A stretch of DNA of 35,632 bases, taken from a bacterium (GTDB taxonomy: Bacteria; Sysuimicrobiota; Sysuimicrobiia; Sysuimicrobiales; Segetimicrobiaceae). A program made the position numbers and the translations under genes. Location of the stretch: positions 1 to 35,632 of the forward strand of contig DASSXJ010000311.1 of assembly GCA_035703895.1 (NCBI GenBank), given 5' to 3'. Positions within the stretch are counted from its first letter, which is position 1. Each line of letters starts with the position of its first letter. The notes beneath the pieces are model-generated. The model did no database searches. It had not been told where the DNA came from and worked only from the letters and a program-made list of their open reading frames with translations. Below are positions 5,452 through 23,371 of the stretch, one piece after another.

Positions 5452-6195
5452 TCATTGTGTTCCCGGTCTTTGGGGTTGAGAGCCAGCGATTGATTCCACC
5501 CAGTGCAGGTGCAGCCTGACCGCGTCGGCAAACAATGAGGGGTTTTCGAGGGGTAACATATGGGGCCCAGCCAGGACCTCCATTCGGCGAGGGGCATGGA
5601 GAGCGTCAAACACCTCTAAGACATGTCCCATCGGCGCCGCCGCGTCGTGCCGCCCTGCAAGCATCGTGACCGGACAACGAATCATGCCAATCTCTTCTCG
5701 CACGGCATGAGCCGCCATCGCTCTCCACCACATGGCAAATGCCCGTGCGTCATCGCTGAGCAAGCGACGCCGAGCGTACGTCACACCGGGATGCTCGGGA
5801 TTGGCAAGGGCCGCGGGCGTAAACCAGCGCTCGAGTGTCGAATTCAGGACGCCGGCCATTCCCGCACGGTCGACACTTGTTGCCCGCTCGCGGAGTCTTT
5901 GACTTCGCTCGGGACTGTCGAGCACACTCGTACACGCGACCATCAGTGACCGTATGCGCTTCGGGTCCCGCAACGCCATGCGCACGGCCAGGGTGCCGCC
6001 CATTGAAACACCGACGACGTCGGCGGCGCCGTCGACCCTTTCGAGCACCTCGTCCGCGACACGCTCGATCGTGAGCTCGTCTCCACGAAGGGGGTTATGA
6101 CCGTGGCCGGGAAGATCGGGCTTCGTGGCTTGAAGCTCAATGAACTGCCAACATTCGCTGTCCAGACCGAGTGGGTGAAGCAACAGCAGTGTCAT
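5452..6195 (-). CDS. Alpha/beta hydrolase (enol-lactonase / N-formylmaleamate-deformylase type)
   Basis: The product has 247 residues and no signal peptide. The triad is visible as Ser64 in GVSMGG, Asp184 in AGRHDAAAP and His212 in GPHMLPLENP. LLLHPLG near the N-terminus provides the oxyanion-hole region. Size and motif spacing fit the group that includes 3-oxoadipate enol-lactonase (PcaD) and the nicotinate-pathway deformylase NicD. Its ATG overlaps the stop of the upstream NicX/M29-like gene as ATGA (6192-6195), which implies coupled expression. The adjacency recalls NicX followed by NicD in pyridine-ring degradation. The exact ester, lactone or amide substrate is inference only. Confidence 0.82.
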   Translation of the reverse strand: MTLLLLHPLGLDSECWQFIELQATKPDLPGHGHNPLRGDELTIERVADEVLERVDGAADVVGVSMGGTLAVRMALRDPKRIRSLMVACTSVLDSPERSQRLRERATSVDRAGMAGVLNSTLERWFTPAALANPEHPGVTYARRRLLSDDARAFAMWWRAMAAHAVREEIGMIRCPVTMLAGRHDAAAPMGHVLEVFDALHAPRRMEVLAGPHMLPLENPSLFADAVRLHLHWVESIAGSQPQRPGTQ

Positions 6196-7262: not shown

Positions 7263-7327
7263 GTGATATCTCCTCGCCGTCCGACATATTTACGACTCCT
7301 GAGGCCTCTCCGATCTCCTGCTCACTC

Positions 7328-8269
7328 TCAGTTTGACCAGCGCCTTTCTGAGCCTACGGTAAGTAGCTTGGGATCAAACGCATCCCGGAGCGCATTCCCT
7401 AGAATCGCTGCGGCGAGCACAGTGACGAAAATCAAGACACCGGGGGCCAAGACTAGTGTCCACGAGTACGCAAAATAGCTTTGGGCATTCTGAAGCATGT
7501 TGCCCCAACTGGGCGTCGGGGGAGCGATGCCCAATCCGAGAAAATCAAGCGCGGCTTCAATCAAAATCGCCTGCCCGAATCCGAGACCCGTAGCCACGAG
7601 TAGAGTTGGCAGAACGTGCGGAAGGACATGCTTAAATATCATCCTGAATCGAGTGGCCCCTAGCGAAACAGCTGCCGCGACAAATTCGCTGTGGCGTACG
7701 ATCAGCGCTTCCCCCCGTACTAACCGTGCCACGTTTGCCCAACCGACAAACGCAATGATGAGCGAGAGTGTAAGTACATTTGGTCTGAAGAGAATCGACA
7801 TAAAGATGAACACGTATATTGCGGGCAGCCCCTTGAGAAGATCGACCACGCGCATCAATGCATCGTCCACGATGCCACCGTAGAATCCCCCGATCACGCC
7901 TACACCGGTACCGACGATACCCGCAATGAGGACACTAAGGAGTCCGACGCCGACGGAGACCTGAGCGCCGTAGAGTAACCGTATAAAGGTGTCTCGCCCC
8001 AGCTCGTCCGTACCCAGGATGTGGCGGCCGCCAGGCGCCGCGAAGGTGTTGTCGAGATTCTGTTTGACGGGATCAAAGCGGAGGATGTGACTACCGATGA
8101 GCGGCGCCGTCAAGGCGATCCCGATACACCACAGAATTACCACGCCTGCGATCATCCCAATCGGATCGCGGGCTAGGTGCTCGAGTGTCATCCGCCAGTA
8201 ACCGCGTGTGGTCTCCGGCCCATATTGGTTAGCCCCTCGAATGTCGCGCTCACCCACCGTGGTGTCCAA
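7328..8269 (-). CDS. Dpp/Opp-type ABC transporter permease (DppC family)
   Basis: The product has 313 residues. It has an N-terminal cytoplasmic segment, a first membrane helix (about residues 38-58), and the periplasmic motif LGTDELGRD typical of DppC/OppC. Five further helices follow. The cytoplasmic coupling loop has the EAA-type pattern EFVAAAVSLGATRFRMI, and the family tail LGLGIAPPTPSWG is present. With the DppB-type partner it forms the inner-membrane channel for the binding protein encoded upstream. The start is a TTG at 8269 with GAGGAAG upstream, 13 bp after the partner's stop; a GTG four codons later is an alternative. No ATPase gene follows, and the next gene is a metabolic enzyme. 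Confidence 0.92.
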   Translation of the reverse strand: MDTTVGERDIRGANQYGPETTRGYWRMTLEHLARDPIGMIAGVVILWCIGIALTAPLIGSHILRFDPVKQNLDNTFAAPGGRHILGTDELGRDTFIRLLYGAQVSVGVGLLSVLIAGIVGTGVGVIGGFYGGIVDDALMRVVDLLKGLPAIYVFIFMSILFRPNVLTLSLIIAFVGWANVARLVRGEALIVRHSEFVAAAVSLGATRFRMIFKHVLPHVLPTLLVATGLGFGQAILIEAALDFLGLGIAPPTPSWGNMLQNAQSYFAYSWTLVLAPGVLIFVTVLAAAILGNALRDAFDPKLLTVGSERRWSN

Positions 8270-8282
8270 TCCTGTTCTTCCT

Positions 8283-9254
8283 CTAGTACCGCAGTCGAGG
8301 ATCGGCCGAGGCGTACAGAATGTCCGCGAGCAGGTTGCCGCCGATGGCCAAGAGAGCCATGAAGGTCGTCAGTCCGAGAACCGCCGTGTAGTCTGTCTGC
8401 ACCGCGCGCTGATACAGGAGCTGGCCCATGCCTCCCCAACTGAAAACGACTTCTATGATGAGAGACCCGCTGAATAACGCCGGTGCTTCGAGACCGACCA
8501 GGGTAATCAATGGGATCATCGCATTGCGAAGCACATGAATATAGAGCACACGAGTTTCTGCCATGCCCTTCGCGCGGGCGGTCCGAATGTAGTCGTGTCC
8601 GAGCACTTCAAGCACGCTCGACCTAACGAACCGAGACCAAATCGCGATGTACCCGAACGCGACTGCCAGGGCGGGCAAGATCAAGTGCACGATCCGATCC
8701 GGGATATCACCGCCACCCTGTCCGGCTTTTGCAATACCGCCCGACGGAAGCGCGGGCAAACCCAGATCGTGCGGTTTAACCGCGAACACGAGGATCAGGA
8801 GGAGCCCCAGCCAAAACGCGGGGATTGCATAGCCCGTCACCGACAGAGAAGTGAGGAGATGGTCGAGGGGCCTACCTCGCCGGACCGCCGCCGCGATGCC
8901 GGTGGGTACTGCGACACACAAAGAGACAGCGGTGGCAGTTAGCGTCAACAGCAGCGTGGCCGGGAGCCGGCTCTGAATCAAGGTAAGCACCGGGATACCG
9001 TCGGTCATCGATCGCCCAAAGTCACCATGGGCAAGGCCAAACAGCCACGTCCCATACTGCACATAGAGCGGTCGGTCCAACCCCAGGTACGATTTGAGTT
9101 GCTCGACCTGCGCCCCGGTCAGGTTCGGATTCAAATCGAGGCCGGGTATGTAACTACCCGCGGCAACATGCATGATGAGGAATGTTATCGTGGTCGCCGC
9201 GATGAATGTTGGTAACGAGACTGCGATCCTGCGCAGCATATATCGGCCTAGCAT
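8283..9254 (-). CDS. Dpp/Opp-type ABC transporter permease (DppB family)
   Basis: The product has 323 residues with the standard six-helix layout. It opens with MLGRYMLRRIAVSLPT, followed by a large periplasmic segment (GLDRPLYVQYGTWL). The EAA coupling loop reads DYIRTARAKGMAETRV. FSWGGMGQLL and the terminal ADPRLRY are family hallmarks. It pairs with the DppC-type subunit 13 bp downstream and receives substrate from the binding protein encoded 60 bp upstream. The Dpp/Opp family imports oligopeptides but also nickel, opines, glutathione and other small organics, so the substrate is not fixed by the sequence. Confidence 0.93.
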   Translation of the reverse strand: MLGRYMLRRIAVSLPTFIAATTITFLIMHVAAGSYIPGLDLNPNLTGAQVEQLKSYLGLDRPLYVQYGTWLFGLAHGDFGRSMTDGIPVLTLIQSRLPATLLLTLTATAVSLCVAVPTGIAAAVRRGRPLDHLLTSLSVTGYAIPAFWLGLLLILVFAVKPHDLGLPALPSGGIAKAGQGGGDIPDRIVHLILPALAVAFGYIAIWSRFVRSSVLEVLGHDYIRTARAKGMAETRVLYIHVLRNAMIPLITLVGLEAPALFSGSLIIEVVFSWGGMGQLLYQRAVQTDYTAVLGLTTFMALLAIGGNLLADILYASADPRLRY

Positions 9255-9314
9255 CGTGTCATCGAACCTGCAGTCGGATGCCGGAAACGATCTCGCGTGC
9301 CTGCGTCGCCCGGG

Positions 9315-11051
9315 TCACTTCGTACCCGCCAGCCAAACGTCCTTAATCCACGGCCGATTGTTCGTCGTGTTGTAAGGCCCGACGTTCCAGCCGACCACGC
9401 GTTTGTTAATCCCCCAAACGCCCTTCTGGTAGACTAATGGCGCCGCCGGCAAATCGTCGCTCAGCAAGTCTTGCACTCGTGCGTAGATCTCCTTGCGCAC
9501 CGACGGGCTCGTGGTGGCAGCCGCCTGATCGATCAATTTATCGACCTCCGGATTGCTGTAGTGCATCCCGTTGAGCCCTCCTGTAACCGTGCCCGAGGTC
9601 GTGAAGAAGCCTCCGAGCAGCTCGTCCGGGTCTGGAGAGTTGGCCAACGCGACCCTGAGCATCACATCGAACGTTCTGATGGAGGTTAGTTGTGCCACGA
9701 GCTGAGAATTCTGTATCGGTCTTGGCGTCGCGTCAACGCCGACATCCTTCCACATGCCCTGCATGGCTACCAGAATGCTCTCGCGTACCTTGTTCCCGGC
9801 GTTTGTCAGGATCTCAAATGCCAGCTTCGTCCCTCCCTTGGCACGCACACCGTCCGCGCCTCGGACCCAGCCCGCCGCATCCAATAGCTCCTCAGCCCGA
9901 TTCTTGTTGAAAGGGTACGTGTTGTGGAGATGTGAGTTATAGGCCCAACTGACCGATGGGAGCTCGCAGTCGCCCGTAACCGCCTGCTCGAAGTAGATGG
10001 TTCTCGCGATACGGACACGGTCTAAGGAGTATTGAAGCGCTTTCCGGACATTCTTATCCCCGAAGAGCTTGTAGCTCGGTTTGGTCGGATCGAGGTTGTA
10101 CACATACCATGTGGCGCCGGGCAGCAAAAAACTCTTACGAACGATATTCTTTGCGCTCGCCAGGCTGACCCATGCGGTCGCATCTGGCTGCGCGACGTCC
10201 ACCTCGCCCGTTCTCAACTGCTCCGCCAGGACCACCGCGTTCGGGACCAGCTTCATCACATAGCCGTCCAACAACGCCGGCCCGCGCCAGTAGCGGTCAT
10301 TTCGAGCAAGCACAACTTGCTGGCCCTTATCCCATTTCACGAACTTGAAGGGACCCGAGCTGACCGTCGGCGCGCTCCAAAACGGGTGTGTGTTGAGCGC
10401 TTTTGGGCTTACGGCGCCGATCATGTGCTTTGGCTGGATTCGAATTCGTCCGTATTCTGCCAGGAATGGCGCCCACGGTTTCTTCAACCTGAACACGATG
10501 GTCGCTGGGTCCGGAGCATCGACACTTGAAAGGAACTGCTCCAGGGCCGGCCGGAACAGCGAGATAAAGTCCTTGGTTTCGGGTACAAACATCAGACGAT
10601 AGGAGAACGCCACATCTTCAGCGGTAAGTGGGTGGCCGTCGCTCCACTCGATGCCACTTCGTAGCTTGAACGTATACGTCAACTGATCGGCGGACGGCTT
10701 GGGGACCTCGGAGGCAAGCGCTGGAATGAGTTCGCCGGCCGAGGTGATATCCAGCAGCCCATCGCCAAGCAAAATAATGATCCAGGTACTGACGTTGTCC
10801 AGCGTATTCAGCGAGTTGAGGGTTGTGACATCAGCGAACCCACCTTCAACCAGTTGACCGCCTTTCCGGGGTGGGCCCGCGGGTGCCTGCGCGGATAGCC
10901 GGGGGCTGTTAGGCTGTGCCGCCAAGCACTCGACGTCTCCGGCGCGGAAGGCCGCCCACACGGCTGATGCCGCGACGGCCTTGAAGAAGCGGCGGCGGGA
11001 CCAGACCTGCAGGAACTGTTCGAACATCGGATAGGTTTCGTCTGAACTCAT
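9315..11051 (-). CDS. ABC transporter substrate-binding protein, family 5, Tat-like signal
   Basis: The product has 578 residues with the SBP_bac_5 fold. Typical blocks are YTFKLRSGIEWSDGHPLTAEDV, shown here only by its core WSDGHPLTAEDV, and SSGPFKFVKWDKGQQV. The start is ATG 11051, with AGAGGAG seven bases upstream; the longer frame to 11186 overlaps the EthD-domain gene. The N-terminus contains SRRRFFKA, which matches the twin-arginine export motif, followed by a short hydrophobic stretch. It is therefore probably exported folded. It delivers ligands to the two permeases encoded next. Its place directly after aromatic-type catabolic genes suggests the ligand is the pathway substrate, possibly not a peptide. 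Confidence 0.9.
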   Translation of the reverse strand: MSSDETYPMFEQFLQVWSRRRFFKAVAASAVWAAFRAGDVECLAAQPNSPRLSAQAPAGPPRKGGQLVEGGFADVTTLNSLNTLDNVSTWIIILLGDGLLDITSAGELIPALASEVPKPSADQLTYTFKLRSGIEWSDGHPLTAEDVAFSYRLMFVPETKDFISLFRPALEQFLSSVDAPDPATIVFRLKKPWAPFLAEYGRIRIQPKHMIGAVSPKALNTHPFWSAPTVSSGPFKFVKWDKGQQVVLARNDRYWRGPALLDGYVMKLVPNAVVLAEQLRTGEVDVAQPDATAWVSLASAKNIVRKSFLLPGATWYVYNLDPTKPSYKLFGDKNVRKALQYSLDRVRIARTIYFEQAVTGDCELPSVSWAYNSHLHNTYPFNKNRAEELLDAAGWVRGADGVRAKGGTKLAFEILTNAGNKVRESILVAMQGMWKDVGVDATPRPIQNSQLVAQLTSIRTFDVMLRVALANSPDPDELLGGFFTTSGTVTGGLNGMHYSNPEVDKLIDQAAATTSPSVRKEIYARVQDLLSDDLPAAPLVYQKGVWGINKRVVGWNVGPYNTTNNRPWIKDVWLAGTK

Positions 11052-11064
11052 GAGCGTTCTCCTC

Positions 11065-11751
11065 TTATCCGGATACGGGTCGTGCAATGAGCCTTTCGGT
11101 GCCGAAGCAACGGCCGCCCAGTACAACGGTCGCTTTGTACGCTGCGTCAGACCGCGTATAGTCGAGAGCTTCCGAGGGACTGCCAAACCAGATGATTTCG
11201 ACAGCGTCGCACTGCCTGGGCTCTGGCGAGTTCACAAGCAGAAGCTCGTGGCGCATGGGCGAAATCTCATCCACGATTTGTGCGTGCGCGCCCTTAAGCC
11301 GCTCGACGAGCGCTCCGGCTCCGTGCACCGGATGGCTACGGTAGAAAGTCATCAGCTTCACGGAGTCGCCGCCGATTTGCCCGGTGACCAACACGTCCCT
11401 GTGCGCGGTAACCGAGTTAAAAGCTGCCTCGTCGAGCAGACTATAGCGATCGGCGTGCAAGCCTACAGGAGCACCAGGAGCGAAAGCCGCCTCCACGGCT
11501 GCGATGCTTTCATACGTGGCCTCCGCGCAGACGTCAAACCCCGGATAGGGCAGCAGGTGACGACCGGCCTCAAGCACCGGAAAATTCTGGACGTAAGACA
11601 GGCGTCCGGGACGGCCGGCGCGACGCGAGCGGGCACCGTGTTCAGCCCACAGCTCGACGAATTCGGCCGTGGTCAATCCAGGTCGCCGGGGCGCCAGGCC
11701 AAACCGTACCACCCGGGTGGATGATTCAGAAGATCCCTGGGAGCGGGTCAT
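11065..11751 (-). CDS. EthD-domain protein, two-repeat dimeric alpha/beta barrel
   Basis: The product has 228 residues. The first half has the EthD pattern: a strand (VVRFGLAPR), the helix FVELWAEHGARSRRAG, then LSYVQNFPV. The second half (KLMTFYRSHPVHGAG onward) repeats the ferredoxin-like topology, so the protein is probably a fused pair of barrel units. EthD proteins accompany ether-, steroid- and aromatic-degrading enzymes; some relatives act as small cofactor-free enzymes. No catalytic residue can be assigned. It lies 46 bp after the NTF2-like gene and 13 bp before the binding-protein gene. The ATG at 11751 has no clear ribosome site, so the start could be a little further downstream. 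Confidence 0.7.
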   Translation of the reverse strand: MTRSQGSSESSTRVVRFGLAPRRPGLTTAEFVELWAEHGARSRRAGRPGRLSYVQNFPVLEAGRHLLPYPGFDVCAEATYESIAAVEAAFAPGAPVGLHADRYSLLDEAAFNSVTAHRDVLVTGQIGGDSVKLMTFYRSHPVHGAGALVERLKGAHAQIVDEISPMRHELLLVNSPEPRQCDAVEIIWFGSPSEALDYTRSDAAYKATVVLGGRCFGTERLIARPVSG

Positions 11752-11797
11752 GGCCGGTGCTTATTCGGGCACGGCTCTGGAGGGGACCGCCGCACGA

Positions 11798-12217
11798 TCA
11801 TCGCAGGGCGAAATCGAAGCTGACCGATCGTGATGCAAACCGCCATTCACTGTCCTCCCGGGCCATAACGTCATCGCAACGACCGACGTGGGTGAGAACC
11901 GGCGGCGCGCCGGGCGTGATGTCGTAGGCCTGAAAGTAGCACCGCCCCCTCACCGATCCATCCGCAATACCCTCGAGCAGAATCTGGCTGCACCAGTGCC
12001 GCCGGAGGACGCCGGTCCGCGCCCGCGCGGCAACGTTTGTGCGATTGCGCTCAATCACCGCCGAACGGCCGCGGCACGCAACTTTTCCCGCGATCGTTAG
12101 CGTCCCGCCCGCTGTGTAACAGGCGCCAAACGCCTCGGGCTGGCCGTCATCCGCGGCCGCGTAGACGCGCGCGTACAGGGCGAGGATCGCCGCGTAATCA
12201 TCGCCGGCGACCGTCAT
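11798..12217 (-). CDS. NTF2/SnoaL-like small protein
   Basis: The product has 139 residues, the usual length for single-domain NTF2-like proteins. The opening helix YAAILALYARVYAAADDG is followed by FGACYTAGGTLTIAGK and the curved-sheet strands HWCSQILLEG, GRCYFQAYDI and WRFASRSVSFDF. This fold serves both as small enzymes (isomerases, hydrolases, dehydratases) and as the beta subunit of ring-hydroxylating dioxygenases. A Rieske protein is encoded two genes upstream, but no dioxygenase alpha subunit is present, so a dioxygenase role is not supported. The ATG overlaps the amidohydrolase stop by four bases (12214-12217). Confidence 0.72.
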   Translation of the reverse strand: MTVAGDDYAAILALYARVYAAADDGQPEAFGACYTAGGTLTIAGKVACRGRSAVIERNRTNVAARARTGVLRRHWCSQILLEGIADGSVRGRCYFQAYDITPGAPPVLTHVGRCDDVMAREDSEWRFASRSVSFDFALR

Positions 12218-13299
12218 GTGCTCGCGCGGTCCAGGTTATACCAGGCGTTGGCGTTCCCACCCAAGACGCGCCGGCCCGCATCGCTGGTAGGCCCGTGCAA
12301 CAGGTCGGAGGGACTCATGGTCGACCAGTGCGGATAGTTGGTCGCGAACAGCAAGAGCTCGGTGGCATCTGTCATGTCAGTCCATTCCGCGACTGTGGCC
12401 GGATCCCCGGGGATTTCAAATCGCGACGTGCAAAACCGGACGTGCGTTCGCAGGTACTTGCTCGGCATCTGGGTGACCCAGGGTGTTTCGGACCGCGAGT
12501 ACAGCCAGTCCATATCCATTCGCCACATGAGCGGCATGAGCAGATCGTGTCCGCCGTCGGCGAAGACAAACTTGACGTCCGGCAGGCGCCCAAAAACGCC
12601 TTCCGCGATAAGACTGGCCAGATGATAGATGAAATTGAGAGGATACATCACGCTGTATTCGATGTAGTGAAGGGGATAGCCAATCGCGGTTGGTTTGAAA
12701 TCGACGCCGGCCCCCCCATCGGTGTGAATGGCCACCGGCAACCGATGGCGCGCGGCGGCCTCCCAGACCTTGAAGTACTGCCGCTGACCGTACGGCTGAT
12801 GGGACTCCAGCGGGATCGCGATTTGGATCATCCGCGGGTGCTGCGCCCAGCGCTCGATCTCGCGGACCGCGCCGCCGGCATCTTCGGGATTCACCCGTAT
12901 GGAACCGAAGTAGCGGCCCCCGGCGTTCCACTCTCCCAGCCAGGTCGCGGCGAGCCAGTCGTTGGTCGCCGCGCAGATGACCGTGTTCATCTCCGTATCC
13001 GGGAGAAGACCGCGCGTCAGCGGCAGCAGGATGGCGGCGTCGGCGCCGCAGGCCGCCAAATGGGCGGCGAGAAGGTCCGGGTCCGAGCCTGGCAGCCCGC
13101 CGCCGGACCGCGAATCCTCGCGGTACTCGCCGTACGGCGGAATCCCGGTCGGCGCGGGGTACAGATACCGGTGCGGCGGCGGGAACACCCGGCTCCGCCA
13201 GGGCTCTTCCATGTACTCCCGCAGCTCGTCGCTGCGGCGTACGATCGGATGGACCGCCGCATCCACGACGTCGAGACGGACCTGCGTCTGCGGGCTCAT
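12214..13299 (-). CDS. Amidohydrolase-2 family protein with altered metal-site residues
   Basis: The product has 361 residues and is a clear paralogue of the gene at 13654-14814: both share EPWRSR, GSDPDLL/GSDPALM, IRVNPED/IRVCPFD, YGQ and the overall TIM-barrel layout. The family includes ACMSD and gamma-resorcylate-type decarboxylases. The paralogue's DCDVH motif reads DAAVH here (Ala15 in place of Asp), and the conserved late Asp (ATDYPH in the paralogue) is Asn321 (ATNYPH). Both are metal-site positions, so this copy may be inactive, use a different mechanism, or act as a partner subunit. The start is ATG 13299, forming an ATGA overlap with the Rieske gene; the open frame further upstream is its shadow. 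Confidence 0.85.
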   Translation of the reverse strand: MSPQTQVRLDVVDAAVHPIVRRSDELREYMEEPWRSRVFPPPHRYLYPAPTGIPPYGEYREDSRSGGGLPGSDPDLLAAHLAACGADAAILLPLTRGLLPDTEMNTVICAATNDWLAATWLGEWNAGGRYFGSIRVNPEDAGGAVREIERWAQHPRMIQIAIPLESHQPYGQRQYFKVWEAAARHRLPVAIHTDGGAGVDFKPTAIGYPLHYIEYSVMYPLNFIYHLASLIAEGVFGRLPDVKFVFADGGHDLLMPLMWRMDMDWLYSRSETPWVTQMPSKYLRTHVRFCTSRFEIPGDPATVAEWTDMTDATELLLFATNYPHWSTMSPSDLLHGPTSDAGRRVLGGNANAWYNLDRAST

Positions 13300-13661
13300 G
13301 CGCCTTCGATCACCACGAATCCGTCTTTGACCTTCACGGGATACGACCGCACGGCCATCGCCGGAAGGGCGATGGAGCGGCCCGTGGCGATCTCGAACTC
13401 GATCCCATGCCACGGACAGCGGACAAACTGTCCCGCTCGAGACCACGTGATTTCGTACGGCGCGGTCCCGGCTTCGACCAGCCCCGTGACGCGTCCCAGG
13501 CAGAGCGGCCCGCCCCGGTGGGGACAATAGTTGAGCAGTCCGTAGTACTGACCGTCGACGTTGAACACCCCGATCCCGAATTTGCCTAACGGCACAATCT
13601 TGACCGTGCCCGGAGGCAATTCCTCAACGCGGCACACCGCTCGGCTTGATGCGTCAGCCAT
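13296..13661 (-). CDS. Rieske [2Fe-2S] ferredoxin
   Basis: The product has 121 residues, a free-standing Rieske domain. The cluster ligands are Cys46 and His48 (CPHRGG) and Cys82 and His85 (CPWHG). Between the two ligand pairs lies a longer insert (about residues 55-78) than in the smallest bacterial members. Such proteins usually pass electrons to ring-hydroxylating oxygenases; some are fused to or serve other redox enzymes. No terminal oxygenase or reductase is encoded in the window, so its partner must lie elsewhere or be one of the neighbouring enzymes. It overlaps both amidohydrolase genes (8 bp upstream, 4 bp downstream), so it is embedded between the two paralogues. Confidence 0.93.
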   Translation of the reverse strand: MADASSRAVCRVEELPPGTVKIVPLGKFGIGVFNVDGQYYGLLNYCPHRGGPLCLGRVTGLVEAGTAPYEITWSRAGQFVRCPWHGIEFEIATGRSIALPAMAVRSYPVKVKDGFVVIEGA

Positions 13662-14814
13662 TCAGGGGCGACCCATCCAAGCTGTCGCGGGCCCGCGTGC
13701 GCGGAAGGCGGTAGAGCTCGATGGCGTTGTCTCGCAGAATAGAGTTCCGCATCGCCTGCGGGAGCCGGGCGGCCGTCCATTCCGGAACGTCCATGTCATA
13801 GTGAGGATAATCGGTGGCGAGCAATAGCAGACGTTCGGCGTCCATCCACGTCATCATCCGCTGCATGGACTTAAGGTGAAACCCCTCTTCGAGGGGCTGC
13901 GTGGTCAACCGGACATGTTCCCGGATGTACTCGGAAGGCCGGCGTTTCACATCGGGGACTTCTGGCCCGAGCGCGTTCCAGTACTGGTCGAGCCGCCAGA
14001 GGAACGGGGGCAGCCAGCTGAAGCCGCCTTCGACGCACACAACCCGCAACTCAGGAAACTTTTGGAATGCCCCGTCGAAGACAAAGCTGTTCAGGTGGCC
14101 CATGTACAGAAGGGGATGTTGGGCGAACGTTTCAATCCAATACGACGGAAACCCGACAGGCGTGAGGGCGCGCATCCCGGGCTGCTTGATGATGTGGAGT
14201 GCGATCGGAAGTCCGTGGCGGGCCGCCGTCTCGAGGATCGGATGAAACTGTGGCTGACCGTACGGCGCGGGCGATTCGGGAAACATGGAGACCTGAACCA
14301 TAAAGGGATGGCCGGCCCACTTCTCGATTTCCCGGATAGCCCCCTCAGGATCAAACGGGCAGACCCGGATTGAGCCCCGATAACGTCCGTGCCAATTGAA
14401 TTTTGAAAGCCATGTGTCGGCCTGCCAGTTGTTACAAGTCGCGCACATCGCCGTCTCAAATGCCGGATCACTAATTTTCAGGCGGGGGAAAAGCGGGATA
14501 AGGATCGCGTAGTCTACGCCGAGTTCCTGGATAAGCTGCTTATCCATCAGAGCCGGATCCGATCCTTCTGGGCCGCCGTGAGCCGGGAGCGCGTCCACCC
14601 GTGTCGCTGTAGACGGCATGTAGATGCGTGCCCCGCCGCTTTCGACCTCCGCGGGGTACCGACGGAAGTACCTGCTTCGCCAGGGCTCGGGGACGTAGTC
14701 CACCAACCCCTCGATCGTCGAGCTCGGGTGAACGTCACAATCAACTATTTTGACCTCAAGTTGACGGCCCGCTGCCATATCTTTCTTTTGCGACTGCTCA
14801 GCCACGTAGGTCAT
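13654..14814 (-). CDS. Amidohydrolase-2 family metal-dependent hydrolase/decarboxylase
   Basis: The product has 386 residues. The metal-site motifs are intact: Asp27 and His29 (DCDVH), a mid-barrel His in ALHI, a His in YMGHLNSF, and the catalytic Asp335 in ATDYPHYD. The family contains ACMSD, 5-carboxyvanillate and gamma-resorcylate decarboxylases as well as amide and lactone hydrolases, all cytoplasmic. It is the first structural gene of the large minus-strand operon. A palindromic operator candidate lies 57 bp upstream of its ATG (14871-14888), and GAGGCGAG lies just before the start. An internal ATG at codon 13 is an alternative start. Neighbouring Rieske, NTF2-like and EthD genes favour an aromatic or heterocyclic acid as substrate. 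Confidence 0.88.
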   Translation of the reverse strand: MTYVAEQSQKKDMAAGRQLEVKIVDCDVHPSSTIEGLVDYVPEPWRSRYFRRYPAEVESGGARIYMPSTATRVDALPAHGGPEGSDPALMDKQLIQELGVDYAILIPLFPRLKISDPAFETAMCATCNNWQADTWLSKFNWHGRYRGSIRVCPFDPEGAIREIEKWAGHPFMVQVSMFPESPAPYGQPQFHPILETAARHGLPIALHIIKQPGMRALTPVGFPSYWIETFAQHPLLYMGHLNSFVFDGAFQKFPELRVVCVEGGFSWLPPFLWRLDQYWNALGPEVPDVKRRPSEYIREHVRLTTQPLEEGFHLKSMQRMMTWMDAERLLLLATDYPHYDMDVPEWTAARLPQAMRNSILRDNAIELYRLPRTRARDSLDGSPLNG

Positions 14815-14870
14815 TTGGGCTCGCCTCTTGCACCTGACTCATATGGAACAGGCGCAATCGATAGAAACTA

Positions 14871-14888
14871 TTGGATCCACGGATCCAA
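14871..14888. promoter_or_regulatory. Palindromic operator candidate upstream of the amidohydrolase operon
   Basis: TTGGATCC-AC-GGATCCAA is a perfect inverted repeat with a 2-base spacer. It lies in the 147-bp gap between the GntR stop and the first amidohydrolase ATG. Almost the same element occurs at 15771-15790 on the other side of the regulator gene. Symmetric elements of 15-20 bp are what FadR-type GntR dimers bind. On the minus strand the arm TTGGAT could double as a -35 element, so binding would block the operon promoter (inference). Confidence 0.7.
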
Positions 14889-14961
14889 ACTCCTGCTGCG
14901 GCGGGTCCTTCATTCCGTGCTACCGGCGTCGGTCGCGGGGCCCTATCTTGACGAAGGTGGG

Positions 14962-15687
14962 CTATTGACGCGCGGCGACCTTCAGAAGACCCGTCTCTCG
15001 GCCTCCGTTCGGCCGGCCGGCAAAGTATTCTTTGGCGGCGCGCGCAATATGAGTGTGCATCGTCTGACCGGCTGCTTTGGCATCATGCTGCTTCAGGGCT
15101 TTGACGATCGCCTCGTGCTCCGCCACAGACCGGCGGGCTCGTCCCGGGATAAACAGCGGCGTAAACACGGTTCGGCCGACCCACAACTGTTCAAGAAACC
15201 GCAAGAGCGTCGGCATGTGCGAGGACTCCCACACGACACGGTGAAACCGTTCGTTTAAATCGGTGACTTTGGACAGGTTGTCTTTGCCGGTTGAGATGGC
15301 CCGCATGGCTCTGGTCAGGTCCTCCAACTTGTCGATCTGCGCCGGCCGGATAAGCCGCGCAGCAGAACGAGCGGCTTCAGACTCCAAGAGTGAACGCAGA
15401 CGATAATTCTCTTCAGCCGCCTCAGCACTAAACGTCTGGACAGCCATCCAGCGCTGGGGCAATTGGACGACCAGTCCTTCAGCCTGAAGGCGTCGAAGCG
15501 CTTCCCGCACAGGCTGACGGCTCACCTGGAGTTCGGTGGCAAGCCTGTCCTGTTGTAACCGTTCACCCGGACGGAACTTGCCGCCCAGGATTGCTTCTCG
15601 GATGGTGCGGGTCACCAGGTCGTTAATGGAGGTCAGGGCGTCCGACCGTAGCGGTGGCAGCGTTATCGTTCGGGTATTGTCGGCCAT
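14962..15687 (-). CDS. GntR-family transcriptional regulator, FadR subfamily with FCD domain
   Basis: The product has 241 residues. The N-terminal winged helix-turn-helix (about residues 20-80) has the recognition region LATELQVSRQPVREAL. The C-terminal all-helical FCD ligand domain spans about residues 90-222, with Asn145, His149, His191 and His213 near the positions used to bind a metal. FCD regulators usually sense carboxylic acids and repress catabolic genes until the acid binds. AAGGAGG five bases before the ATG gives strong initiation. The gene is flanked by two matching palindromes and has a good promoter whose start site sits next to one of them, so autoregulation and control of both adjacent units are likely. 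Its ligand is probably an acid handled by the neighbouring enzymes. Confidence 0.93.
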   Translation of the reverse strand: MADNTRTITLPPLRSDALTSINDLVTRTIREAILGGKFRPGERLQQDRLATELQVSRQPVREALRRLQAEGLVVQLPQRWMAVQTFSAEAAEENYRLRSLLESEAARSAARLIRPAQIDKLEDLTRAMRAISTGKDNLSKVTDLNERFHRVVWESSHMPTLLRFLEQLWVGRTVFTPLFIPGRARRSVAEHEAIVKALKQHDAKAAGQTMHTHIARAAKEYFAGRPNGGRETGLLKVAARQ

Positions 15688-15770
15688 TCGGCCTCCTTGG
15701 CGTCAACGATGGTCCGGAACAGGTTTGTCTTGGCTCGTCCCGTTACCTTGTCGTGGCGAAAAAGAGGATG

Positions 15771-15790
15771 TTTGGATCCGGGGATCCAAA
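15771..15790. promoter_or_regulatory. Palindromic operator candidate between the GntR gene and the divergent flavoprotein gene
   Basis: TTTGGATCC-GG-GGATCCAAA is a perfect 20-bp inverted repeat. Its 8-base arms are identical to those of the element at 14871-14888. It lies immediately downstream of the predicted -10 of the regulator gene and 87 bp before the flavoprotein start, so a bound dimer could block both divergent transcripts. Confidence 0.72.
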
Positions 15791-15801
15791 TAACCGTCTC
15801 T

Positions 15802-15830
15802 ATCATACAGCGCATGCGGTTGAGCTTCAA
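15802..15830 (-). promoter_or_regulatory. Sigma-70-type promoter of the GntR gene
   Basis: Read on the minus strand, TTGAAG (15830-15825) is separated by exactly 17 bases from TATGAT (15807-15802), a good match to housekeeping -35 and -10 elements. Transcription would begin near 15795, directly before the palindrome at 15771-15790, and give a leader of about 100 bases. This geometry suits repression by the regulator itself. Confidence 0.6.
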
Positions 15831-15877
15831 CCATCAGCGTACGTCTTCTCGTTCCGCAGCAGGCGAGTCGTTCGCGG

Positions 15878-17626
15878 GTGGGGATTGCTGAGGTGCATCT
15901 CCACGTGACTGAATGGTACGAGCTTCATGACTACGACGTTGTGGTCATCGGCGCGGGGGGCGCAGGCCTGCGCGCCGCGATTGCGGCCGCCGAGGGCGGC
16001 GTAACGGTCGGCGTCATCTGCAAGTCCCTGCTCGGCAAAGCGCACACCGTGATGGCTGAAGGCGGCATCGCCGCCGCGCTCGGCACTGTGGATCCCGCGG
16101 ACACATGGCAAGTCCACTTTGCGGACACGATGCGTGCGGGCCAGGGGATTAACGATTGCAGGATGGTCGCGCTTCTGGCCCGCGAAGCCCCGGATCGCAT
16201 CTATGAGCTCGAACGATGGGGCGGGGTGTTCGACCGGACTCGGGACGGACGAATCTTGCAGCGCTGGCTCGGGGCCCACACGTACCGGAGGCTCTGCCAC
16301 GTCGGCGACCGAACCGGCCTCGAAATCATTCGTACGCTGCAAGACAAGGCCGTCCACAGCGGGGTCGACGTGCATATGGAGGTCACGCTTACCCGTCTGC
16401 TTACCGACGGCGAACAGATCGCCGGCGCCTTCGGGTACCGGCGCGCGGACGGGCGGTATGTCGTGTTCAAGGCCAAGGCCGTTATTCTTGCCACGGGAGG
16501 GTGGGGAAAGGTTTTCAAGGTTACCAGTAATTCCTGGGAGTGCACGGGGGACGGTTGCGCGATGGCGTACGACGCCGGGGCGGAACTGGTGGACATGGAG
16601 ATGGTGCAGTTCCATCCGACGGGCATGGTTTGGCCGCCAGGCGTCCGCGGCATCCTTGTCACAGAGGCGGTCCGGGGCGAGGGGGGTATCCTTCTGAACG
16701 CCCGTGGAGAGCGCTTCATGGAGCGGTACGACCCGAAGAAGATGGAGCTTTCGAGCCGCGACGTCGTCGCGCGGTCTATTTATCAGGAAGTACAGGCCGG
16801 GCGGGGCACGCCACACGGCGGCGCCTACCTGGATATCAGTCACCGCGACGCCGAGTTTATCAAGAAGAAGCTACCGAGCATGTACGAGCAGTTTCTGAAG
16901 CTGGCGGACATCGACATCACGAAGATCCCGATGGAGGTCGCGCCGACCGTCCATTACGTCATGGGGGGCGTGTGGGTGGAGGCGGGCACCGGCGCGACGA
17001 CTGTGCCCGGTCTCTATGCCGCCGGCGAGGTCGCAGCGGGCGTGCACGGCGCGAATCGGATGGGTGGCAATTCCCTGGCCGATCTCCTCGTGTTCGGGAA
17101 GCGGACGGGCGAGCATGCCGCCCAGTATGCAGAGAGCCTTAGGATCGTACCCGCGGTGGATGATCGCCAGGCGGCGGAGGAGCGCAGGGTGCTCCAGGCG
17201 CCATTCGAGAGGGACCGCGGCGAGAACCCGTATGAACTCCATGAGCAACTGCAGGACGTCATGGGCGAGGACGCCGGGATCGCGCGCACTGGCTCGACGC
17301 TCGCCCGCGGCCTCGAAAAGATCCTCGCACTCCAGGAACGAACGGAGCGGCTCTATGCCGGGGGATCGATGTTATACAACCCCGGCTGGCACCAATGCCG
17401 CGATGTGCGATTCATGCTCACGCTGTGTGAGGCGATCTTGCGCTCGGGCATCGCGCGCACAGAGAGTCGCGGCGCGCACTGGAGATTGGACTACCCCGAC
17501 CAGGACGCGGAGTGGGGACGCAAGAACGTGGTCGTCAAACGTGAGGAGGGACAGATGCAGGTGACAACGCGACCGGTTCCCCAGATGCCGCCGGAACTGG
17601 TGCGACTCGAGGAGATGCAAGTGTAG
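15878..17626 (+). CDS. SdhA/FrdA-like FAD-dependent oxidoreductase without partner subunits
   Basis: The product has 582 residues, the length of succinate dehydrogenase or fumarate reductase flavoproteins. Near the N-terminus VVIGAGGAGLRAA binds FAD. His56 in KAHTVMAEGG is the position of covalent FAD attachment, with Glu where Gln is usual. HPTG, TEAVRGEGG and SSRDVVARSI supply substrate- and proton-handling residues, and NRMGGNSLADLLVFGKR is the second FAD contact. These features predict reversible dehydrogenation of a succinate-like dicarboxylate. No iron-sulfur or membrane-anchor subunit is encoded nearby, so electrons must leave by another route. The start is uncertain: GTG 15878 is used, but GTG 15893 or 15905 are also possible. 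The divergent position beside the GntR operator implies shared control. Confidence 0.87.
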   Translation: MGIAEVHLHVTEWYELHDYDVVVIGAGGAGLRAAIAAAEGGVTVGVICKSLLGKAHTVMAEGGIAAALGTVDPADTWQVHFADTMRAGQGINDCRMVALLAREAPDRIYELERWGGVFDRTRDGRILQRWLGAHTYRRLCHVGDRTGLEIIRTLQDKAVHSGVDVHMEVTLTRLLTDGEQIAGAFGYRRADGRYVVFKAKAVILATGGWGKVFKVTSNSWECTGDGCAMAYDAGAELVDMEMVQFHPTGMVWPPGVRGILVTEAVRGEGGILLNARGERFMERYDPKKMELSSRDVVARSIYQEVQAGRGTPHGGAYLDISHRDAEFIKKKLPSMYEQFLKLADIDITKIPMEVAPTVHYVMGGVWVEAGTGATTVPGLYAAGEVAAGVHGANRMGGNSLADLLVFGKRTGEHAAQYAESLRIVPAVDDRQAAEERRVLQAPFERDRGENPYELHEQLQDVMGEDAGIARTGSTLARGLEKILALQERTERLYAGGSMLYNPGWHQCRDVRFMLTLCEAILRSGIARTESRGAHWRLDYPDQDAEWGRKNVVVKREEGQMQVTTRPVPQMPPELVRLEEMQV

Positions 17627-17630
17627 GAAC

Positions 17631-18836
17631 ATGTCGATGCCCCTCTCTGCTGGACCTCTCGCGGGCCTCACGGTGCTCGATCTCTCGACGATTGTCTCGG
17701 GAGGTACTGCGACCTCCATGCTTGCCGACTTCGGTGCGGAAGTGCTGAAGATCGAACACCCTCGCCAAGGCGATCCGCTCCGGTCCTGGGGACCATTTAT
17801 GGCGGGACAGTCGGTCTGGTGGAAGGTCATGTCCCGAAACAAGAAGTCGGTCACGCTGAACCTCAGCCTCCCGAAGGGACAACGGCTCCTTGCCGATCTC
17901 GCCCGGCGCGCCGACGTTTTGGTGGAGAACTTCCGACCTGGCACCCTGGAGAAATGGGAGCTCGGCCCCGATCGTCTCATGGAGATCAACCCGAGGCTCG
18001 TGATCCTCCGCATCTCCGGGTTCGGCCAGACCGGCCCGTACAGTCACCGGCCGGGGTTCGGGACCGTTGCGGAGGCAATGAGCGGGCTTGTGGCGATCAG
18101 CGGGTTTCCGGAGTCATCTCCGCTCGTACCGCCAATCCCCCTGGCCGACCAGGTCTCCGGGCTTGTCGGCGCGATGGCCGTGCTCATGGCCATTCATCAT
18201 CGCGGGCGCTCCGCCCGCGGCCAGGTCATCGACGTCAGTCTCTACGAGCCCCTGTTTCGGCTCCTCATCCCGTATGTGACCCAGTACGCCGCTCTCGGAA
18301 TTCAAGCACAGCGCACCGGCAACCAGTTCCCGCACGCCGCGCCTCGCGACCTCTACCGGGCCCGCGACGGCGGTTGGGTCGCGCTCTCCGCCACCAGCCA
18401 ACGAGTCTTCGAGCGCTTGGCCCGAGCAATCGGACGGCCGGAGCTTGTTGCGGATCCTCGCTTCAGAGATAATGCGGCCCGCGTCGAGCACCGGGAACCA
18501 CTTGATGCGATCCTGGCCCAGTGGATGGCGGCGCGAACGCAGGACGAGATCCTCGCACAGCTGGAGGAAAGCGGCGCCGTAGCCGGTCCAGTGTACGACA
18601 TTCCGCGTATCCTCCGCGATCCGCACTACGCGGCGCGAGACAATGTCATCGCCGCACCTGACCCGGAACTCGGAGACATCAGGATGGTAGGGATCATCCC
18701 CAAGTTTTCCGACACACCGGGAGGCGTTCGCGCCTCAGGGCCCCGACTGGGGCACCACAACGGCGAAATCTATCGAGAATGGCTTGGGTTGGGAGAAGAG
18801 GATCTTGAGCATCTCCGCGCCGATGGGGTCATCTGA
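17631..18836 (+). CDS. CaiB/BaiF class III CoA-transferase
   Basis: The product has 401 residues, the standard length. The N-terminal block GLTVLDLSTIVSGG, the SRNKKSVTLNL segment, FGQTGPY and Asp173 in PLADQVSG (the acid that forms the aspartyl-CoA anhydride) all fit the family. RGQVIDVSLYE follows in the expected order. These enzymes move CoA between carboxylic acids in the cytoplasm (formyl-CoA, carnitine and benzylsuccinate CoA-transferases are examples). The gene begins four bases after the flavoprotein stop, so the two probably form one unit: activation of a dicarboxylic acid and its desaturation, or the reverse, is a reasonable inference. A second ATG two codons later is better spaced from TAGGAA. 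Confidence 0.93.
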   Translation: MSMPLSAGPLAGLTVLDLSTIVSGGTATSMLADFGAEVLKIEHPRQGDPLRSWGPFMAGQSVWWKVMSRNKKSVTLNLSLPKGQRLLADLARRADVLVENFRPGTLEKWELGPDRLMEINPRLVILRISGFGQTGPYSHRPGFGTVAEAMSGLVAISGFPESSPLVPPIPLADQVSGLVGAMAVLMAIHHRGRSARGQVIDVSLYEPLFRLLIPYVTQYAALGIQAQRTGNQFPHAAPRDLYRARDGGWVALSATSQRVFERLARAIGRPELVADPRFRDNAARVEHREPLDAILAQWMAARTQDEILAQLEESGAVAGPVYDIPRILRDPHYAARDNVIAAPDPELGDIRMVGIIPKFSDTPGGVRASGPRLGHHNGEIYREWLGLGEEDLEHLRADGVI

Positions 18837-19961: not shown

Positions 19962-20879
19962 ATGGCCCATCTCGCTGTGCGCCGGAGCTGGCAAGCACTG
20001 ATCGTCTTGTTGTGGGCGTTGACGGCGGTCTTCTTTCTTGTTCGTTTAACGGGTGACCCCACGCTGCTCTACATTCCCGAGAACTCCACGCAAGAAGAGA
20101 TCGCGCGTCTCCGCCATGCATTTGGATTCGATCGGCCGCTCTGGGAGCAATATGCTCGGTTCCTGTCCGGTGCGCTCCGTGGCGATTTTGGCGCCTCTCT
20201 CCGGTATGATCAACCGGCGCTCCCCCTGGTGCTCAATCGGTTACCGAATACCGCTGAACTGGCCCTCGCGACGCTCGTCATTATCGTTGGCGTTGGAATT
20301 CCGGTAGGGGTGCTAGCCGCCACACGGCGGAACTCCTGGTGGGATACTGGCTCTATGATCGCGGCGATGACGGGGCAGTCGTTGCCAAGTTACTGGCTCG
20401 GGATCATGCTTATCCTGCTGTTTGCAGTCAGACTCGGCTGGTTACCCGCCGCCGGGCGAGGGAATCCATTGAGCGTGATCCTGCCCGCGGTGACCCTTGC
20501 CGCGTATTCCACAGCCAGGCTTGCCCGAGTCGTCCGGTCCGAGATGCTCGAGATCTTGGGGAGAGAGTTTATTCGCACTGCCGAATCGAAGGGCCTCCGC
20601 CCGGTAATGATCCTGCGAAAGCACGCACTGCGAAACGCCCTCATCCCGGTGGTGACTCTCCTCGGTCTCGAGCTTGGGTTCCTGTTGGGAGGGGCGATCA
20701 TCGTGGAGTCTGTGTTCGCGTGGCCTGGGGTCGGGAGCTTGGTGATCCAAGCGGTGAACAACCGCGATTACCCCGTGGTCCAGGCCGACGCCTTCCTCGT
20801 AGCGCTGATCTTCGTCATTGCCAACCTCCTGGTAGATCTGCTATATGGGGTACTCGATCCCCGGGTTCGTTATGGTTGA
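19962..20879 (+). CDS. Dpp/Opp-type ABC transporter permease (DppB family), second set
   Basis: The product has 305 residues with six predicted membrane helices. It has a large periplasmic segment after the first helix (FGFDRPLWEQYARFL), the coupling loop EFIRTAESKGLRPVMI, FAWPGVGSLV and the terminal LDPRVRYG. The last 8 bp overlap the start of the DppC-type gene, so the pair is translationally coupled. It is clearly diverged from the first set at 8283-9254, so the two importers are separate acquisitions or old paralogues rather than a recent duplication. Substrate is unknown; downstream peptidase-like genes make a short peptide or acyl-amino acid plausible. Confidence 0.93.
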   Translation: MAHLAVRRSWQALIVLLWALTAVFFLVRLTGDPTLLYIPENSTQEEIARLRHAFGFDRPLWEQYARFLSGALRGDFGASLRYDQPALPLVLNRLPNTAELALATLVIIVGVGIPVGVLAATRRNSWWDTGSMIAAMTGQSLPSYWLGIMLILLFAVRLGWLPAAGRGNPLSVILPAVTLAAYSTARLARVVRSEMLEILGREFIRTAESKGLRPVMILRKHALRNALIPVVTLLGLELGFLLGGAIIVESVFAWPGVGSLVIQAVNNRDYPVVQADAFLVALIFVIANLLVDLLYGVLDPRVRYG

Positions 20880-21744
20880 TCGGGCCACGACCGCAGTCGT
20901 AAAACACCGGCGGCAGGCCCGGCCGGGCGTGCTGGCTGCCGAAGGTGTCTTAGGGCTGATTGTTCTTCTCGCGATCCTGCCAAATGCGTTTGCGCCGCAC
21001 AGCGCTTTGGATCAAGACTTGGCGACCCGGCTGAGACCGCCGGCATGGTTGGCGGGTGGAAGCTGGGATCACGTCTTGGGTACCGATGCGCTCGGCCGCG
21101 ATGTTTTGAGCCGTATCATCTTTGGCGCCCGGGTCTCACTCGCCGTCGGAGTCATGGCCGTCGTCGTATCCGGGGTGCTCGGCGTGGGCCTTGGTGTGAT
21201 CGCGGGGTATTTCCGTGGTCACGTTGATGACCTTATCATGCGGGTGACGGAGGTTCAGTTGTCGTTTCCATTCATCCTTGCGGCCGTGGCGATCGTCTCG
21301 GTCCTGGGAGCCGGTTTGCGGAACATCATCCTGGTTCTCGGGTTGACCGGGTGGACCACGTACGCGAGGGTGGTTCGCGGAGCGGCACTCGCACTTCGCG
21401 AGCAGGAGTTTCTTGAGGCGGCCAGAGCGGTTGGCTGCTCCCACTTCCGCGTGATGCGTCGCTATATCCTCCCCAATATTATGGGTACCGTTCTTGTCTT
21501 GGGCACGTTCGCACTCGCGACGTTCGTCATCGCTGAGTCAGCCTTGAGCTACCTCGGCCTCGGGGTCCAGCCCCCAACGCCCACGTGGGGGGGGATGTTG
21601 GCCGACGGCTACCTCTACTTGAGGACGGCCTGGTGGATCACCACGTTTCCCGGGCTCGTGCTTATGCTGACCGTGCTCTCGATTAACGTCATCGGTGATT
21701 GGGCGAGAGATGTGTTTGATCCGCGCTTGCGGAACATACTGTGA
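20872..21744 (+). CDS. Dpp/Opp-type ABC transporter permease (DppC family), second set
   Basis: The product has 290 residues. The motif LGTDALGRDVLSRIIFGA follows the first helix, the coupling loop EFLEAARAVGCSHFRVM precedes the fifth helix, and LGLGVQPPTPTWGGML closes the family signature. I start at ATG 20872, which overlaps the DppB-type stop by 8 bases; the longer frame from 20845 adds nine residues that merely shadow the upstream gene. The binding protein follows after 61 bp. As with the first set, no ATPase gene is adjacent. Confidence 0.92.
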   Translation: MVDRATTAVVKHRRQARPGVLAAEGVLGLIVLLAILPNAFAPHSALDQDLATRLRPPAWLAGGSWDHVLGTDALGRDVLSRIIFGARVSLAVGVMAVVVSGVLGVGLGVIAGYFRGHVDDLIMRVTEVQLSFPFILAAVAIVSVLGAGLRNIILVLGLTGWTTYARVVRGAALALREQEFLEAARAVGCSHFRVMRRYILPNIMGTVLVLGTFALATFVIAESALSYLGLGVQPPTPTWGGMLADGYLYLRTAWWITTFPGLVLMLTVLSINVIGDWARDVFDPRLRNIL

Positions 21745-21805
21745 ATGGACTGGCGGTGTGGTGCCACACTGGCCACGAAACGAGCACGTGAGGGAGGGGA
21801 ACGGT

Positions 21806-23371
21806 ATGACAAGATCAGGAACGGTCGCTCGGTCGGCGGCGGCTGCGATGGTGGCGGCGGTGACCGCACTGTGGGCGGGGTTGGTCCCGCCGACCACGAC
21901 GGCGCAGGCCGGGGCCACGGTGACCATTGCGCAGCCGGCAGATGCGATCACGATGGATCCTCAAAAACATGCGGTGGCGTTCACTGATAACGTTCTGGTG
22001 AATGTCTTCGAACCCCTGATCAGAAAGGATCCCTACTCGACCGATCCGGACAAGGCGCTGCAGCCGTGGCTTGCGGAGTCGTGGCGAGAGTTCGGTCCCA
22101 AGCGCTGGCAAATCAAGTTGCGGAAAGGCATCAAGTTCCATGACGGCGAGGAGCTCACCGCGGCCATCGTCAAGTTTAGCTTCGAGCGGCTGATCAATCC
22201 CGATACGAAGTCGCCGGCGGCGAGCTTGTTCGGGACGCTCGATCGCGTGGAAGTCGTCGATAAGTACACCGTCAACTTCGTCAACAAGGCGCCCGACCCG
22301 ATCTGGCCCGCGCGGCTCGCGGGCGACCTCGATTTCGTCGTCCCGATGACTTACATACAGGACAAGGGCGACGCAAACTTTGCGCAGCACCCGGTTGGGA
22401 CTGGCCCATATCGATTCGTCGAGTGGCGAAAAGGCGAGCAGGTCGTCCTGGATGCCAATCCAGATTATTGGAGAGGGGCGCCCAAGCAGATTCGTCGATT
22501 GGTCTTCAAACCGATCCCCGACGCTGCTACCCGCGTGGCCGCGCTTCAATCGGGCGCCGTGGATATCATTAATGAGCTTCCAGTTGCGCTGCTTACGACG
22601 CTCGAGCGCGACCCTCGCATATACGTGACATCGGCGGAGGGGTCCAGCGGACTGTTCTTTATCGGGGCCGACATGCGGTTCGGGGGACCGCTGGCCAATA
22701 AGAAGGTCCGGCAAGCCCTCAACTACGCCGTCAACGTGGACAGCATCATCAAGAACGTCATGCAGGGTCAGGCTGTGCGGACCCCTACGCTGGTGGGCCC
22801 ATTCACGTGGGGCTACGCGGCACTCAAGCCATATCCATATGATCCCGACAAAGCGAAGCAGCTGCTCACGGAGGCAGGATTTGCCGGTGGGTTTGACGTG
22901 ACGTTCAACGCGAGCCCCACTCGATGGTCGGAGGGGAAGGAAATCGTAGAGGCGATTACCGCCGATCTCAACAAGGTCGGCGTTCGCGCGAAGCTCAAGT
23001 ACCAGGAATGGGCGACGTACGTGGACATGCTGTGGAGCAACAAGCCTCATGACCTGTACATCCGTACCTGGTCAACGGGAGACAAACTTGACGCCGATAC
23101 GCCCATGTTCTTGATTCTCCGATCGGGAGTCGCGAGTTCTACCTACAGCAACCCTGAGGTCGACACCCTGCTCGACGCAGAACGGCGCGAGCTGCGGCCC
23201 GACGTACGGAAGAAGTTGTTCGGACAAATCCAGGAGCGCATCATGGAGGACCCACCCGCGGTCTTCCTCTTCGCTGGGAACGCGATTTACGGGGTCAACC
23301 GGCGGTTGCGTTGGAAGGCTCCTCACGACTACCGCATGTGGCTGACCGATCTCGCAGTGGTCGGGCGCTGA
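21806..23371 (+). CDS. ABC transporter substrate-binding protein, family 5, second set
   Basis: The product has 521 residues. A Sec-type signal peptide covers about residues 1-35, with a likely cut after AQA. SBP_bac_5 landmarks are KLRKGIKFHDGEELTAA, GTGPYRFVEWRKGEQV and ANPDYWRG. The start is ATG 21806, where GGGAGGGG lies upstream at a suitable distance; the open frame back to 21695 overlaps the permease. It lacks a lipobox Cys, so it is periplasmic in a diderm or released unless anchored otherwise. It feeds the permeases encoded directly upstream. The order permease-permease-binding protein differs from the first set, where the binding protein comes first. Confidence 0.92.
   Translation: MTRSGTVARSAAAAMVAAVTALWAGLVPPTTTAQAGATVTIAQPADAITMDPQKHAVAFTDNVLVNVFEPLIRKDPYSTDPDKALQPWLAESWREFGPKRWQIKLRKGIKFHDGEELTAAIVKFSFERLINPDTKSPAASLFGTLDRVEVVDKYTVNFVNKAPDPIWPARLAGDLDFVVPMTYIQDKGDANFAQHPVGTGPYRFVEWRKGEQVVLDANPDYWRGAPKQIRRLVFKPIPDAATRVAALQSGAVDIINELPVALLTTLERDPRIYVTSAEGSSGLFFIGADMRFGGPLANKKVRQALNYAVNVDSIIKNVMQGQAVRTPTLVGPFTWGYAALKPYPYDPDKAKQLLTEAGFAGGFDVTFNASPTRWSEGKEIVEAITADLNKVGVRAKLKYQEWATYVDMLWSNKPHDLYIRTWSTGDKLDADTPMFLILRSGVASSTYSNPEVDTLLDAERRELRPDVRKKLFGQIQERIMEDPPAVFLFAGNAIYGVNRRLRWKAPHDYRMWLTDLAVVGR

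Follow-up and report, generated by a model that had tools for sequence, protein, structure and literature searches.

Phased GGATCC boxes as putative operators of an FCD-type GntR regulator in a Segetimicrobiaceae genome

Introduction

GntR proteins are usually dimers. In Caulobacter, VanR binds the ATTGGATCCAAT boxes of the vanillate promoter, which form its operator. For FadR-subfamily sites, additional half-boxes have been reported at 7-12 nt from the centre, and a lone site in a divergent GntR region usually acts on the genes to either side (Suvorova et al. 2015, PMC4494728). NanR, an FCD regulator, recognizes closely spaced hexamer repeats with a (GGTATA)3 operator, of which two or more boxes are needed (PMC8012715), and its repeat unit has been given as the 8-letter TGGTATAW (PMC4494728). 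Atu1419 from Agrobacterium fabrum is a tetrameric FCD regulator of the VanR group with the site ATGTATACAT (PMC7797058). The vanillate promoter sequence of Caulobacter crescentus contains ATTGGATCCAAT and ATTGGATCCAg (PMC6538847). Here, a GntR-FCD regulator gene and its surroundings are compared with these systems. The locus lies in a stretch of 35,632 nucleotides of bacterial DNA (contig DASSXJ010000311.1, assembly GCA_035703895.1), referred to as the window, from the 4.38-Mb genome G000.

Results

The regulator gene (14962-15687, minus strand) has AGGAGG ahead of its ATG and encodes a protein of 241 aa. By its predicted domains the protein is an ordinary member of the GntR superfamily, FCD (FadR-type) subfamily, with an N-terminal GntR winged helix (Pfam GntR, 7.5e-16; 58 bits, cut-off 27) and a C-terminal FCD domain (Pfam FCD, 2.6e-26; 92.9 bits, cut-off 24.3). 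The best NCBIfam match is PhnR (TIGR03338) at 118.3 bits, under the equivalog cut-off of 271.5 bits, and the second-best is NanR (1.1e-19) at 71 bits, below the NF003011 cut-off of 260 bits, so that these scores place the protein neither within PhnR nor as an ortholog of E. coli NanR. The solved structures closest to it in sequence belong to other FCD regulators and include McbR, the 6z74 group and NanR. His149, His191 and His213 fall in alignment columns that are invariant or almost so, and are candidate metal-holding FCD histidines. The recognition helix is SRQPVREALRRL, in which residue 58 is a Gln (SRQPVREA) common to the ortholog from genome G017 described below, and nine of nine distant homologs aligned possess Thr or Met at this position; the Gln is a candidate specificity residue that may relate to the changed operator letters. 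The protein has an N-terminal leader of ~20 residues, part of which is conserved in the G017 ortholog (LP...A..S.ND). Besides this regulator, G000 encodes about ten FCD homologs that are more distant, and no other transcription-factor gene was found among the window's main reading frames.

Two intergenic elements of the common form TTGGATCC-N2-GGATCCAA flank the regulator gene. The first, s1 (TTGGATCCACGGATCCAA, 14871-14888), lies inside a 147-bp gap (14815-14961), 57 bp ahead of the gene that heads a minus-strand run, and the second, s2 (TTTGGATCCGGGGATCCAAA, palindromic core 15771-15790), lies inside a 190-bp gap (15688-15877), 84 bp before the ATG of the regulator gene. Read directly from the letters, both are perfect inverted repeats, and s2 is one base longer per arm, with 9-base arms, as an initial annotation of the window had described. 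The two centres are 901 bp apart, in agreement with the spacing of about 900 bp given there, and the gene context is also as annotated: the GntR-FCD gene, a minus-strand run from 14814 down, headed by an amidohydrolase gene, and a divergent unit from 15878 on the plus strand.

A sigma-70-like promoter of the regulator, TTGAAG-N17-TATGAT, was predicted at 15802-15830 on the minus strand by a promoter scan (one found; 0.3 on average in shuffles). At its 15790 arm, the palindromic core of s2 begins ~12 bases downstream of the TATGAT hexamer, which bears out the annotated placement just past the predicted -10. This is the only such promoter recognized in the region, and no promoter-like sequence was recognized beside s1 and the operon or for the flavoprotein unit. 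The run behind s1 (1406-14814, minus strand) is a putative 13.4-kb operon, predicted from gene spacing only to form a single transcript. Its products are two Amidohydro_2 proteins, a SnoaL-like protein, an EthD-domain protein, an SBP5 protein with two ABC permeases, a weakly M29-like peptidase, an alpha/beta hydrolase, an SDR protein, a 2-hydroxyacid dehydrogenase and an S9 peptidase. The divergent unit beyond s2 (15878-18836, plus strand) encodes a fumarate reductase/succinate dehydrogenase-type flavoprotein and a family III CoA-transferase. The window as a whole encodes two pairs of peptide/nickel-type ABC permeases along with three SBP5 binding proteins, at 7328-11186 (minus), 19962-23371 (plus) and 33394-35004 (plus); no ABC ATPase was found among the main window reading frames scanned, and the ATPases for these permeases are presumably encoded elsewhere.

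At up to three mismatches, s1 and s2 are the sole matches to the motif in the window, where the initial annotation had likewise seen it nowhere else; shuffled windows hold 0.15 such matches on average, and two matches were reached in 3 of 100 shuffles. The genome-wide scan proposed in the initial annotation returned two exact copies in G000, both intergenic beside the regulator, none at one or two mismatches and 16 at three. Eight of these 16 were inspected, and all eight lie within stop-to-stop frames of 322-700 codons. By a simple 4^-16 estimate, an exact 16-base match is expected ~0.001 times in a 4.38-Mb genome. Exact copies are absent from 42 other genomes of the phylum, from 592 genomes of two other phyla and from a third search set. 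Perfect inverted repeats as such are not rare in the window, which holds 21 with arms of at least 8 and spacers of up to 20; the unusual part is that the same arm occurs twice, both times intergenic, flanking one regulator gene. Elsewhere in the window, a 16-bp perfect spacerless palindrome, CGGATCGTACGATCCG (31159-31174), lies inside a reading frame (30737-31702) that matched no Pfam family.

The phylum sample comprised 43 genomes, all from one order, and among the 42 others the sole close ortholog of the regulator is found in G017, from a different family of the same order (56% identity, 223 residues). When the whole window was compared by BLASTN with the 1.4 kb around this ortholog, the top match was 15764-15791, with 24 of 28 positions identical (E 0.003). 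The matching element lies upstream of the G017 ortholog in the same orientation relative to the gene as in the window; in the regulator sense, the window reads ATTTGGATCCCCGGATCCAAACATCCTC and the G017 upstream DNA reads ATTGGGATTTCCGGATCCAAAGATCCTC. At L048:3274-3320, this G017 element is nested in a more extended, imperfect inverted repeat, CGAATTGGGATTTCCG ... CGGATTTTCAAATTCG, the centre of which differs from the centre of the box pair.

The single site of G017 at two mismatches is a second element, TTGGATCCAAAGATCCAG on contig C159. It directly abuts a truncated copy of the regulator that is without the first ~150 residues and exhibits 55-61% identity to the regulator over 67-75 residues. 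The remnant (C159:15718-15975) corresponds to residues ~150-228, with a stop codon five codons ahead of the operator-like element. The locus appears as if the stretch from promoter to mid-gene had been deleted or misassembled, and the truncated frame could reflect misassembly. The gene run behind this element, on the minus strand, encodes dehydrogenase-like, SBP5, hydantoinase-like and M29-like proteins, the dehydrogenase- and hydantoinase-like labels being a reading of the translations. M29-like, SBP5, SDR and glyoxalase-like families are common to the window and both G017 loci.

Neither the TTGGATCC nor the GGATCCAA half-site is present at any of 36 other FCD loci (at most 41% identity), and a collection-wide protein scan returned only 30-36% identical relatives, all without the motif. 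No ortholog was found at a strict threshold in two further phyla, one of the protein searches being empty and without a positive control. As the searches yielded a single intact close ortholog, the footprint is drawn from four sites in two genomes, with one of the sites beside a truncated gene.

Two further near matches were considered as operators and rejected. Among the sites inspected in a phylum-wide 2-mismatch search, an FCD homolog lies nearby only at L072, besides C159, and at L072 the motif is part of the coding sequence for the helix RILESK in a different FCD protein, which makes this a chance match. A near-identical site in genome G036, TTGGATCCAAAGATCCAC, is coding sequence inside an imidazolonepropionase-like gene, indicating that a single 2-mismatch site can arise by chance.

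Within the elements, the repeat unit is the self-complementary hexamer GGATCC every 8 bp. The putative operator s1, with no strand assigned, reads TTGGATCC-AC-GGATCCAA and possesses boxes at 14873-14878 and 14881-14886. The putative operator s2, likewise unstranded, extends over 15766-15790 as GGATGT-TT-GGATCC-GG-GGATCC-AAA, with boxes read directly from the letters at 15766-15771, 15774-15779 and 15782-15787. Its third box, GGATGT (15766-15771), lies at the regulator promoter, is conserved and is in phase with the other two. The palindromes of the initial annotation are both perfect, but conservation tracks the 8-bp-phased hexamers, including this third box outside the palindrome, which had been overlooked. 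In the regulator sense, the boxes are [GGATCC]CC[GGATCC]AA[ACATCC] at s2, [GGATTT]CC[GGATCC]AA[AGATCC]TC[GGATTT] upstream of the intact G017 ortholog (C85) and [GGATCC]AA[AGATCC]AG[GGATTC] at C159, and in the operon sense s1 reads [GGATCC]GT[GGATCC]AA[TAGTTT]. Flanking GGAT/ATCC half-boxes number four in the 8-bp register and one in the seven other registers combined. Four of eight adjacent slots are filled, against 0.06 expected, a count reached in none of 20,000 flank shuffles, with the boxes defined from the same sites and the counts not fully independent, since both G017 sites could go back to a common ancestor. At least two hexamers at ~8-bp pitch, the NanR-type arrangement, can be read at each of s1, s2, C85 and C159. 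GGAT/ATCC is kept in all four sites, and the canonical GT...AC core of the FadR subfamily (TKGT...ACMA) is absent.

Each element could instead be bound by one regulator dimer on a single 18-20 bp palindrome with TTGGATCC half-sites, as would be usual for FCD regulators, which generally bind palindromes (PMC4494728), and as the perfect twofold symmetry of both window copies, with 9-base arms at s2, would allow. Given that GGATCC is its own reverse complement, direct and inverted repeats are indistinguishable in the window. The G017 cores, however, are imperfect palindromes, with three mismatches at C85 and two at C159, and both sites are asymmetric yet retain the 8-bp phasing and a third, outside box, which breaks the tie towards phasing. 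Furthermore, the usual FCD core of ~10 bp is fitted by one GGATCC box (G3...C8, cf. Atu1419, PMC7797058), suggesting that the 18-bp element is two overlapping cores. Binding of one dimer to the long palindrome is therefore considered rather unlikely. The geometry speaks rather for a NanR-like arrangement, in which neighbouring dimers sit on adjacent boxes, a preference held with roughly even confidence. More tentatively, the regulator may belong to a small FCD lineage with an SRQPV recognition helix, represented by the two orthologs seen, that uses a tandem array of GGATCC hexamers at 8-bp pitch as its operator, with neighbouring dimers overlapping on the DNA. If so, the array would read equally as direct and inverted repeats and would be intermediate between a palindrome of the VanR type and the direct repeat of NanR.

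The identity, uniqueness, ortholog conservation and phasing of the sites are read from the sequence. Judging by genome-wide uniqueness, conservation beside the ortholog and the position just downstream of the predicted -10, s1 and s2 are very probably the operators of the FCD-type GntR regulator whose gene they flank. These observations preserve one part of the complete switch proposed in the initial annotation, namely the paired putative operators of the adjacent regulator; for its other transcripts, those of the operon and the flavoprotein unit, no promoter-like sequence was recognized. Alternatively, the elements might belong to a different transcription factor whose gene lies elsewhere in the genome, or be chance occurrences. 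The further FCD homologs of G000 leave room for another factor, and assignment by proximity is indirect. However, the genome holds no other good site, no other regulator gene was found in the window, the expectation for an exact match is far below one, and the palindromes upstream of two FCD paralogs in G000 look different (GGTATATCTATGTATACC, ATTGTATACGGGATACAAT). The element also travels with the ortholog of this regulator, and uniqueness together with co-conservation makes another factor or chance improbable.

Binding, the direction of regulation and the ligand are inferred as follows. The regulator would bind the GGATCC boxes at 8-bp pitch, two at s1 and three at s2, as cooperative dimers. 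At s2 it would occupy roughly +5 to +29, immediately downstream of the promoter that drives its own gene, and block transcription; autorepression downstream of the sigma-70-like promoter is likely. At s1 it would repress the amidohydrolase/ABC-transporter operon, and a small carboxylate-type catabolite in the FCD pocket would release it. Such repression by cooperative dimers is the preferred model on the grounds of promoter-operator geometry, the FCD core fit and the packing precedent of NanR. Control of the divergent flavoprotein/CoA-transferase unit by s2 is plausible, given the two-sided action usual for single sites in divergent GntR regions (PMC4494728).

As an addition to the cooperative-dimer model rather than an alternative, a regulator tetramer might bridge s1 and s2 and loop out the regulator gene. 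This is doubtful given the 901-bp spacing and the usual dimeric state of GntR proteins. The tetrameric Atu1419 does, however, loop between palindromes 190 bp apart (PMC7797058). That the inverted repeats work at the RNA level, forming a terminator or attenuator hairpin in the 5' leader, can be rejected as very improbable because the fold is not kept in the ortholog, where the element folds no better than shuffles (z +0.51) though its letters are conserved, the s1 fold is not unusual (z -1.37) and the third box plays no part in the hairpin, even though both repeats are flagged as terminator-like on the minus strand (two found, 1.4 expected) and the fold computed for the s2 RNA has an energy of -13.4 kcal/mol (z -2.96).

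Discussion

For a phylum that is small and little studied, the locus supplies an operator and a regulon of a catabolic gene island that can be put to the test. The operator assignment is well supported; the gene control itself is fairly ordinary, with an unusual repeat layout, and the locus provides a natural case linking two known FCD modes of reading DNA, the short palindrome and phased direct repeats. The third box illustrates that letters beyond an obvious palindrome can carry conserved signal. The suggestion that the motif defines a new operator class is, however, too strong, given the precedents of the TTGGATCC-armed boxes of the Caulobacter vanillate promoter (PMC6538847) and the closely spaced, phased hexamers of NanR (PMC8012715).

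E. coli NanR resembles the window system in its close hexamer repeats and in an operator that lies downstream of the RNA polymerase site (PMC8012715), a blocking position similar to that of s2, and it provides the precedent that FCD dimers can occupy hexamers as closely packed as here. The window boxes, however, are self-complementary GGATCC in twos or threes, whereas those of NanR are GGTATA; a 32-residue N-terminal extension drives cooperativity in NanR, whereas the leader of the window protein is only ~20 residues; and the genes around the window regulator do not suggest sialic acid use.

The Caulobacter vanillate promoter shares the TTGGATCC arm, a resemblance known from the operator arms alone. 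Its boxes are separate palindromes, whereas in the window two overlap at 8-bp pitch, and no vanillate demethylase gene was recognized in the window. Atu1419 is similar in possessing several sites around its own gene, promoter sites and the 10-bp core geometry (G3/C8) (PMC7797058), but the core letters of the window boxes differ. Finally, the distance of 12 nt between the centre of the palindrome and that of the third s2 box falls in the range reported for the extra half-box of FadR-subfamily sites, whereas the common consensus of those sites is TKGT...ACMA and that of the window is GG-AT-CC.
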